Assembly: GCA_902514745.1 (NCBI GenBank)
Contig: CABXRX010000003.1
Coordinates: 1-61,423, forward strand
DNA: 61,423 nucleotides
Reading direction: 5' to 3'
Source: an uncultured Pelagibacteraceae bacterium
Lineage (GTDB): Bacteria > Pseudomonadota > Alphaproteobacteria > Pelagibacterales > Pelagibacteraceae
Shown: in pieces, positions 56,384 to 59,657 of the stretch
How the letters are laid out: the number at the start of each line of letters is the position of its first letter
How positions within the stretch are numbered: the stretch's first letter is position 1
Notes under the pieces: generated by a model
Databases searched by the model: none
What the model was told of the DNA's origin: nothing
Seen by the model: only the letters and a program-made list of their open reading frames with translations
Made by a program: the position numbers and the translations under genes

Positions 56384-58114
56384 ATGAATTTAGATAATTT
56401 AAACAACTTAATTGAATTATTCTCTTACCAAGCGGATAAACAAAATAAAAAAAGTATTTTTTTACAATGGTTAAATCCAAATAATAAAAAAACATATACT
56501 TGGGAAGAAACGCAAAGAAATATTTTAAAATTATCAAAAATAATAAAAGAAAATATTAGGGAGGGTGATAGATGCTTATTGGTCTCAGAAAATAGACCTG
56601 AATGGTTTATTTCTGATATGGCAATTATGTTATCAGGTGGAATTACTGTTCCTGCATATACTACTTATACTGAAGAGGATTATAAATATTTAATTGAAGA
56701 TTGTGAACCTAGCCTAATAATTGTTTCAAATAATGAAATGTTAAAAAAATTAAACAATACTATTAATGAAAAAGATTTTATAAAAAAAATTATAACTTTA
56801 GATGAAATTAATAATGTAATTCACAATTTAGATATAATAGAAGAAAACAAGTATATAGACTTTACAGTCATATTAGAAACTGACTTATCAAAAGAAGATA
56901 AAATTCAAAATAAAAATTTAAAAAGAACTTCTCCTGCTTGTATAATTTACACATCTGGAACTGGAGGAAATCCTAAGGGAGTAATTTTAAGCCATGGTGG
57001 AATTTTAAATAACCTTGTGGGAGCTTGTGAAATTATGAAACCATTGTTTAATTCCAGACCAGTATTTTTAACCTGGCTTCCTCTTTCTCATTCCTATGAA
57101 CATTGTGTGCAATTTGCCCAAATAGCCGTAGGAGCAAAAGTATTTTATGCAGAAAAAATAGAAAAACTTTTAGAAAATATATCTGAAGCAAAACCAACAA
57201 TTATGACAGCGGTACCAAGATTTTATCAAAATCTTTATAATAAAATTAATATTAATCTGAAAAAACAAACAGGGCTTAAAGCTAAGTTGATTAATGCAAC
57301 TCTTCGATTAGGTAAAAAAAAATTATTAAATCAAAAAATGACTTTTTCTGAAAAATTAATGAATTTGATAGTTGAGGTGCTAGTTAGAAAAAAAATAAAA
57401 AAACAGTTTGGGGGAAATTTAAAAGCTTTTGTCTCTGGTGGAGGTGCACTAGATAAAGAAATTGGAGAATTTTTAAATTCTGTAGGATTGCCTACACTTC
57501 AAGGATATGGTCTTACAGAAACGTCACCAGTGGTAAGTTGCAACCCAATACACAAGATTAAAGTAGAGACAGTTGGCCCTCCTTTTAAGGGAAACCAAGT
57601 TAAAATTGCCGATGATGGAGAAATTTTAGTAAAAGGTGAAAATGTAATGTTGGGATATTGGAACAAAAAAAAAGAGACTGATGAAGCAATTGCTAATGGA
57701 TGGCTCCATACTGGTGATATAGGAGAAATAGATCCAGAGGATGGTTATTTAAAAATTACTGACAGAAAAAAAGATATTATTGTAAGTGCTGGAGGAGACA
57801 ATATTTCACCAGCTAAAATTGAAAATATGATTACAAATGAGCCAGAAATTGATCAATGTATGGTTTATGGTGATAAAAAAAATTTTTTGGTCGCTCTGAT
57901 AGTGCCAAGTAAAGATTTTTTAAAAGAAAAAGAAAAAATCAATAATGTTATTGAAAAAATAAATAAAAAATTAACATTATTAGAAAAAATAAAAAAAATT
58001 CAATTAATAGATGAAAATTTTTCTATAGAAAACGGTTTAATGACTCCAACAATGAAAGTAAAAAGAAAAAAAGTTACAGAAAAATATAAAAATCAATTAG
58101 AAAAGCTTTATTAA
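56384..58114 (+). CDS. AMP-forming long-chain acyl-CoA synthetase family protein
   Basis: CIIYTSGTGGNPKGVILSHGGILNN, GYGLTETSPVVS, GWLHTGDIGEID, KITDRKKDIIVSAGGDNISP. Confidence 0.95.
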   Translation: MNLDNLNNLIELFSYQADKQNKKSIFLQWLNPNNKKTYTWEETQRNILKLSKIIKENIREGDRCLLVSENRPEWFISDMAIMLSGGITVPAYTTYTEEDYKYLIEDCEPSLIIVSNNEMLKKLNNTINEKDFIKKIITLDEINNVIHNLDIIEENKYIDFTVILETDLSKEDKIQNKNLKRTSPACIIYTSGTGGNPKGVILSHGGILNNLVGACEIMKPLFNSRPVFLTWLPLSHSYEHCVQFAQIAVGAKVFYAEKIEKLLENISEAKPTIMTAVPRFYQNLYNKININLKKQTGLKAKLINATLRLGKKKLLNQKMTFSEKLMNLIVEVLVRKKIKKQFGGNLKAFVSGGGALDKEIGEFLNSVGLPTLQGYGLTETSPVVSCNPIHKIKVETVGPPFKGNQVKIADDGEILVKGENVMLGYWNKKKETDEAIANGWLHTGDIGEIDPEDGYLKITDRKKDIIVSAGGDNISPAKIENMITNEPEIDQCMVYGDKKNFLVALIVPSKDFLKEKEKINNVIEKINKKLTLLEKIKKIQLIDENFSIENGLMTPTMKVKRKKVTEKYKNQLEKLY

Positions 58115-58270
58115 ATTATACTTTGTATGCTGTTTATTATCCGCATAAACATTAACTAAATTAAATAAAAAAAATTTAAAAAAAAAAATGAATTAAAAAT
58201 TTATTTTAAAATTTTCATTTTAATTAAAGAATTGACATAGCTTGGATAAAAAAATAAAAATATAGTAATA

Positions 58271-58289
58271 ACGAATCAACTTGATTCGT
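58271..58289. promoter_or_regulatory. perfect palindrome upstream of H1-like peptide gene
   Basis: ACGAATCAA-C-TTGATTCGT, 9-bp arms, 1-nt centre, two GANTC sites. Confidence 0.85.
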
Positions 58290-58312
58290 TTAACTTAAAC
58301 AGGGAGCTAAAG

Positions 58313-58420
58313 ATGCCTAAGAAAAGAAAAAAAGCTGCTAAAAAAACAAAGAAAAAAGCAGCAAAGAAGACTAAGAAAAAAGCTAAAAAGGCTAAAAAAG
58401 CTAAAAGAAGAAAAAGATAG
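58313..58420 (+). CDS. histone H1-like Lys/Ala-rich basic peptide (35 aa)
   Basis: MPKKRKKAAKKTKKKAAKKTKKKAKKAKKAKRRKR*; SD agggag upstream, intrinsic terminator downstream. Not in ORF track. Confidence 0.85.
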   Translation: MPKKRKKAAKKTKKKAAKKTKKKAKKAKKAKRRKR

Positions 58421-58440: not shown

Positions 58441-58482
58441 AAAACGCTTCTCATTACAATTTGTATGAGAGGCGTTTTTTTT
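58441..58482 (+). terminator. intrinsic terminator of H1-like peptide gene
   Basis: AAACGCTTCTCAT-tacaatttgt-ATGAGAGGCGTTTTTTTT. Confidence 0.92.
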
Positions 58483-59374
58483 ATTCATCTAAATTTTCGT
58501 CTGGATCAGTAATAGGTTCTTCAACAGGTAATTCAGTTGTAGATGACTTTGGAGTAGAAGCCATCGGTTGAGCTTGGCTAATCAAATTTCTTTTTAAAGC
58601 TTTATCAAGTTTCTTTTGTGTATCTTCTAGTGATACATTCAAAACAATTTGAAACTCTGATAAAATTCTCTCATATGCTTTCTCAAATAATTGTCTCTCA
58701 CTATAAGATTGATCAACCATAAGATCATCACCTTTATTTAAATCTCTTACTACTTCAGCTAATTCATAAATTTTACCAGAAGAAATTTTAGCTTCATATT
58801 CTTGCGCTCTTCTACTCCACATAGATCTCTTAATTTTTGGTTTACTTTTTAAAATAGAGATACACTTATTAACTTGATTAATTGTTGCTAAAGGTCTTAA
58901 GTGAGATTGTTTATTTACTGGAACCATTCCATTAGCTTTGTCCTTTTCAAACTTTATTACATATGTTTCAACATCAATGCCACCTATATTTATTTTTTTA
59001 AATTCAGTGATTTGACCAACACCATGTTTTGGATAAACAACATAATCTTTAATCTTATATTCTCTTTTTTCAGTTTCTTGCTTTTTAACTTTTTTAATTT
59101 CAGGTTTAACTTCATTACTTTTAGAAATTCTTAGGTTATCAACTTTTACCTCTTCTTTTGCTTTAGTAACTTTTATTGGTTTTTTCGATTTAATTTTTGT
59201 GGAAGAAATTCTTTTAGTTTTTTTAATAACAACTTTTTTTATTTTTTTTACTTTTACTTTTGCTATTTTTTTTGCTTTTTTAACCTTTTTAATTGTAACT
59301 TTTTTTTTCACTTTTTTTTCAGATTTAGTTTTAAAGATTTTCTTTAAAATATTTTTCGTACTTATTTTGCTCAT
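58481..59374 (-). CDS. CarD family transcriptional regulator with Lys-rich N-terminal extension
   Basis: CarD core [48 protein letters not shown]...; preceded by about 70 Lys-rich residues; start MSKISTK at 59374. Confidence 0.92.
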
Positions 59375-59657
59375 TTTTAAATTTATTATGATCCGCAGGG
59401 GGATCTTTTTTTTCACTTATATTTGGCCAGATTTCTGAAAATTTTTTATTGATTTCCAACCACTGCTCACTATCAGGTTCAGTGTCTGCTGTAATGGCTT
59501 CCACTGGACATTCTGGCTCACAAACGCCACAATCTATACACTCATCCGGTTTAATTACAAGCATATTTTTACCCTCATAAAAACAATCGACAGGACAAAC
59601 ATCAACACAATCAGTTAATTTACACTTTATACATTTGTCGTTAACTACATATGTCAT
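59331..59657 (-). CDS. fdxA: 7Fe/8Fe ferredoxin FdxA
   Basis: [54 protein letters not shown]. Confidence 0.97.

Follow-up and report, generated by a model that had tools for sequence, protein, structure and literature searches.

A minimal histone H1-like peptide gene in Pelagibacter and RF01814, a putative antisense RNA matched to its ribosome-binding site

Few marine bacteria are as abundant as Pelagibacter. The window analyzed here, a 61,423-nucleotide stretch of DNA from an uncultured member of the Pelagibacteraceae, carries an open reading frame (ORF) of 35 residues that raises two questions: what is a peptide composed almost entirely of lysine, arginine and alanine, and how is its synthesis controlled? 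The gene and its surroundings comprise the following features.

56384–58114, + strand: upstream neighbor outside the unit, an AMP-binding enzyme of the acyl-CoA ligase type (Pfam AMP-binding)
58232–58261, + strand: sigma-70-like promoter, TTGACA (58232–58237) and TAAAAA/AAAAAT (58255–58261)
58270–58290, + strand: perfect dyad, AACGAATCAA-C-TTGATTCGTT, which folds as a hairpin at the RNA 5′ end
58301–58306, + strand: Shine–Dalgarno (SD) sequence AGGGAG, 6 nt before the ATG
58302–58322, + strand: target of the RF01814 loop, GGGAGCUAAAGAUG (14 pairs), a mismatch at 58316, then CUAAGA (6 pairs)
58313–58420, + strand: gene for the 35-aa Lys/Ala/Arg peptide, minimal and histone H1-like, recognized from the ORF, its relatives and an excess of synonymous changes
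58441–58482, + strand: terminator hairpin, ACGCTTCTC...GAGAGGCGT-T8, fold of −19 kcal/mol, conserved in relatives
58481–59416, − strand: convergent neighbor, a transcription factor of the CarD family whose N-terminal tail is rich in Lys (Pfam CarD_C, CarD_TRCF_RID)

The predicted peptide, MPKKRKKAAKKTKKKAAKKTKKKAKKAKKAKRRKR, has the composition K20 R4 A7 T2 M1 P1, a net charge of +24 and a computed pI of ~12, in line with the sequence-only reading of the frame as almost nothing but K, R, A and T. Every residue after the initiating Met is K, R, A, T or P, no hydrophobic stretch is present in the 35 residues, and the chain contains KKAAKKT/KKAKK units without Pro. With 24 of its 35 residues Lys or Arg and a further seven Ala, it has the Lys/Ala-rich, strongly basic composition of H1-like proteins. 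No Rfam RNA was found at the peptide gene, the sole Rfam match in the window being a tRNA.

The strong SD sequence and the intrinsic terminator that the sequence-only reading had proposed are both present. The promoter is predicted from its boxes (TTGACA-18-AAAAAT or 17-TAAAAA), the start site not having been mapped; TTGACAT and AAAAAAATAAAAAT are conserved among same-genus loci, and the start region GGGAGCTAAA(G/A)ATG is nearly invariant within the genus. A simple terminator scan missed the 58441–58482 hairpin, which emerged upon RNA folding and is possibly shared with the convergent carD gene. The palindromic element described in that same reading is real, but it does not stand upstream of the promoter: the dyad lies directly 3′ of the promoter, so that the 58270–58290 hairpin probably forms the 5′ terminus of the peptide mRNA. 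The hairpin is kept in all genera tested, with shifted arms and G–U changes. Both dyad halves spell TGATTCG, quoted as the extended GcrA motif and named for Caulobacter (PMC7987155), and GcrA is encoded in six of six near-complete relatives. Cell-cycle control of the peptide gene through GcrA is possible, in the absence of binding data; against it, the second TGATTCG half-site is lost in several genera that keep a hairpin, and a test for GANTC depletion returned counts no lower than those for two control pentamers. A wider regulon built on the dyad was also considered and rejected, as there is one dyad place per genome among the matches listed and all 30 places fetched proved to be the peptide gene.

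The ORF together with its signals exceeds what chance would produce: it recurs at the same locus throughout the genus, with its frame kept and synonymous changes in excess. Despite its low complexity, the peptide was recovered by protein search in 25 of 151 genus genomes, the dyad alone matches 82 of the 151, and the ribosome-binding site (RBS) pattern matches nearly all same-genus genomes, with few exceptions in an order-wide sample. Relatives supplied 76 distinct ORFs encoding 44 peptides of 21–35 aa, in which every change of length is in frame. Nearest-neighbor comparisons of these ORFs yielded 80 synonymous and 20 amino-acid changes, i.e. 80% synonymous against an expectation of 35% when the same base changes are placed at random sites. 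The amino-acid changes are confined to K–R and A–P exchanges, and the stop codons TAG and TAA interchange. Judged by this comparative evidence, the ORF is coding, and the pattern that would have refuted the sequence-only reading, an RNA preserved while the frame is lost, is the opposite of what SAR11 relatives display.

The identity of the peptide is clarified by its position. A Lys-rich ORF lies convergent with carD at nearly all loci examined (carD fetched from 26 genomes of 11 genera), and this synteny of carD and the peptide gene holds across the order; no Lys-rich gene convergent with carD was seen at 29 out-of-family loci in a class sample. Orthologs from other Pelagibacteraceae genera are either short, at 21–24 aa, or longer, at 31–58 aa (MAKKRKKAAKKKAPAKKRKP...); the sister family has a KAAPKKK-repeat protein of 76–91 aa at this locus (MEELKVIFAKARKKAKKKAAPKKKRKAAKRKP...). 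KAAPKKK/KKRKPA repeats occur in the longer orthologs of other genera and of the sister family, with clear KAAPKKK units in the sister-family and g4 orthologs, and an ACGAATC hairpin, whose arms shift yet still pair, precedes nearly all of the carD-linked Lys-rich orthologs. Because one locus encodes this series of proteins, the simplest reading of the sequences is that the peptide is a miniaturized H1-like protein of Pelagibacterales, shrunk in Pelagibacter; the earlier suggestion of an H1-like Lys/Ala peptide is accordingly strengthened. As none of the 35-, 58- or 85-aa forms matches a Pfam or NCBIfam family, the evidence for an H1-like identity is that of composition and synteny. The analysis gives a clear identity to a gene that ordinary gene calling misses on account of its size, in a lineage that is dominant in the ocean.

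Most likely the peptide condenses nucleic acid or another polyanion, a function that is inferred without binding data. It would bind and compact its ligand by charge alone, which fits the simple composition and freely varying length of the peptide. The C-terminal KPAA tails of AlgP and PhaF (PMC9239181) and chlamydial Hc2 (PMC2848022) are likewise Lys/Ala(/Pro)-rich low-complexity chains of high net charge, and length variation by repeat number is common to these H1-like proteins and to the peptide family, whose sister-family orthologs carry KAAPKKK repeats. The example of AlgP shows such tails to be capable of DNA binding and of positioning polyphosphate granules (PMC9239181). Unlike AlgP, PhaF and Hc2, the peptide is only 21–35 aa long in the genus, contains almost no Pro and lacks a folded N-terminal domain, and no homology to these proteins is detectable beyond composition.

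The answer to the second question came from the RBS itself. Its pattern, GGGAGCTAAANATGNCTA with at most one mismatch, occurs twice in most genus genomes, once at the peptide gene and once on the complementary strand of RF01814, the rhtB motif. RF01814 was described in 2009 as a bulged hairpin with no target (Meyer et al. 2009, PMC2704228); no target has been reported in the literature searched, in which no further paper on this RNA was found. It is encoded elsewhere in the genome, not adjacent to the peptide gene, and in same-genus genomes forms a hairpin (GATAGTCC/GGACTATC) whose conserved loop, UUAGCCAUCUUUAGCUCCC, complements both the SD and the AUG in the peptide mRNA. Conserved promoter-like AATGCA...TGATATTAT boxes lie 5′ of the hairpin, and T-runs 3′ of it, each on the Rfam strand only; the T-runs are clear in just 11 of 37 distinct loci. 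In 14 of 16 genomes of the genus RF01814 scores above the Rfam gathering threshold, and by hairpin pattern it is present in 133 of 159, including 51 of the 54 that are at least 90% complete. The window's own metagenome-assembled genome, a draft only 55% complete, gave no match, and the relative G112, whose peptide is 94% identical, carries the RNA. RF01814 went undetected in 25 genomes from other genera, which gives it a more restricted distribution than the peptide gene; control of the gene there must work by some other means or through diverged RNAs beyond the reach of these searches. RF01814-like hairpins near GGAG...ATGGCTAA sites in other genera were sought as candidates, and none was present among 30 fetched loci. 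A phage origin was also rejected: the RBS pattern has 26 viral matches, which fall at the starts of unrelated phage genes or in short, spurious ORFs, with neither the peptide nor the RF01814 hairpin present.

On sequence grounds, the RF01814 loop is complementary to the peptide RBS and changes with it. The computed interaction energy between the window's target and the RNA of G112 is −17.1 kcal/mol; energies overall range from −12 to −18 kcal/mol, compared with a mean of −0.9 (minimum −10.4) for shuffled sequences, and swapping partners between types costs ~4–5 kcal/mol. In the 78 genomes in which both RNAs were read, the base before the AUG and its partner in the small RNA (sRNA) agree without exception (G with C in 72, A with U in 6), as they do in the set used for the carD tree (42 + 8 of 50). 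On the best carD tree there are three changes per partner, always together, one of them on well-supported branches. The evidence for covariation therefore comes mainly from a single position, at which one to three independent events are counted, with a partial second covariation at codon 3. At codon 2 an Ala-to-Pro change (base +4) leaves one uncompensated C–C mismatch in 29 of the 78 genomes, the window's type included. Two features of a trans-acting antisense pair, extended complementarity to the RBS of a single target and covariation between the two RNAs, are thus present in the sequences, with repression of the target a prediction. This match between the RF01814 loop and the RBS of an H1-like mRNA is new and is a larger finding than the identity of the peptide; it provides an RNA family without a function since 2009 with a specific, testable target.

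That the loop matches the RBS suggests that RF01814 switches the peptide off. RF01814 would be transcribed from its own promoter, and its loop would meet the GGGAG of the peptide mRNA; a duplex of 14–20 bases would then spread from the SD through the spacer to the AUG and the first codons, stopping initiation independently of Hfq, and the peptide, once made, would neutralize nucleic acid or another polyanion. The transcription of both RNAs, the repression and the peptide's target are all inferred. Hfq (PF17209) was not found in any of nine Pelagibacterales genomes, with control genomes matched; those without a match include G012, G082, G163, G153, G165, G112, G151 and G152. Among alphaproteobacterial sRNAs, SmelA075 and SmelA099 (CCUCCUCCC) also carry hairpin loops complementary to the SD, which are presumed to block the RBS (PMC3927594). 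Those loops are generic anti-SD elements present in several loops and copies, whereas the RF01814 loop reaches beyond the SD to the spacer, the AUG and the first codons of a single gene and, unlike them, sits in a lineage without detected Hfq. We consider it probable, with expression, binding and repression inferred from sequence, that the peptide is an H1-like polycation of 35 residues whose translation is repressed by RF01814 as a trans-encoded antisense RNA without Hfq. The broader proposition, on which the evidence leaves us evenly balanced, is that Pelagibacter, in which Hfq is undetected, has a one-to-one circuit in which the antisense RNA switches a protamine-sized H1-like peptide and so controls the condensation of chromatin or another polyanion, the RNA being found only in the genus where the H1-like protein shrank to peptide size. 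If correct, this would be a compact example of control by an sRNA in a lineage that yielded no Hfq.

Other interpretations of the peptide must be weighed against the proposal of a repressed H1-like polycation. Basic ribosomal proteins of 20–40 aa are known elsewhere and go unnoticed by gene callers; a peptide that is very basic, tiny and conserved family-wide could likewise be associated with the ribosome or with RNA and have RF01814 as its regulator. We regard this as unlikely, given that the peptide matches no Pfam or NCBIfam family and that its composition (nothing but K, R, A, T and P after the Met), its range of 21 to 58 aa and the full KAAPKKK repeats of its orthologs are not what one expects of a protein with a fixed docking site on rRNA. 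The antisense match to the RBS of so small a peptide also recalls a type I toxin–antitoxin pair, in which the polycation would be harmful in excess and RF01814 would be the antitoxin. In such pairs the toxin is small and hydrophobic and the antisense RNA is encoded at the toxin locus, whereas here the peptide has no hydrophobic stretch and the RNA lies at another locus, not adjacent to the gene; no phage copies were found, and throughout the family the peptide gene retains a single location without RF01814, all of which renders this idea improbable.

Doubts can also be directed at the RNAs. The strong conservation of the 5′ hairpin, RBS and terminator would be expected if the conserved unit were itself an RNA, an sRNA or leader, with the ORF incidental, but to this we give very little credence: an incidental ORF within a noncoding RNA is rejected on the synonymous excess (80% vs 35% expected), and the exclusively in-frame length changes, the restriction to K–R and A–P exchanges and the interchange of TAG and TAA point the same way. 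RF01814, for its part, might be transcribed on the other strand as an RBS decoy, or amount to no more than a DNA element or a terminator for rhtB, which is convergent with it. The inverted repeat was pointed out by Meyer et al. (2009, PMC2704228), who offered a conserved terminator among their readings, and T-runs follow the hairpin in only some loci. The promoter-like boxes and T-runs nevertheless occur on the Rfam strand only, and a conserved 18-nt loop that changes in step with the RBS of another gene would be superfluous in a terminator, leaving little room for either alternative.

Several minor observations accompany the antisense proposal and the peptide locus. A conserved TTAATGCA box lies ~17 nt 5′ of the −10-like TATTAT of RF01814 (L118–L131, L166–L195) and may be the site of a regulator that decides when the RNA is made. 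The H1-like gene of 76–91 aa with KAAPKKK repeats at the sister-family carD loci (L111–L117) has no Pfam or NCBIfam model. Finally, the Lys-rich N-terminal tail of the neighboring CarD protein, ~110 aa in length, itself closely resembles an H1 tail, and similar Lys-rich tails are found on other Pelagibacterales CarD proteins.
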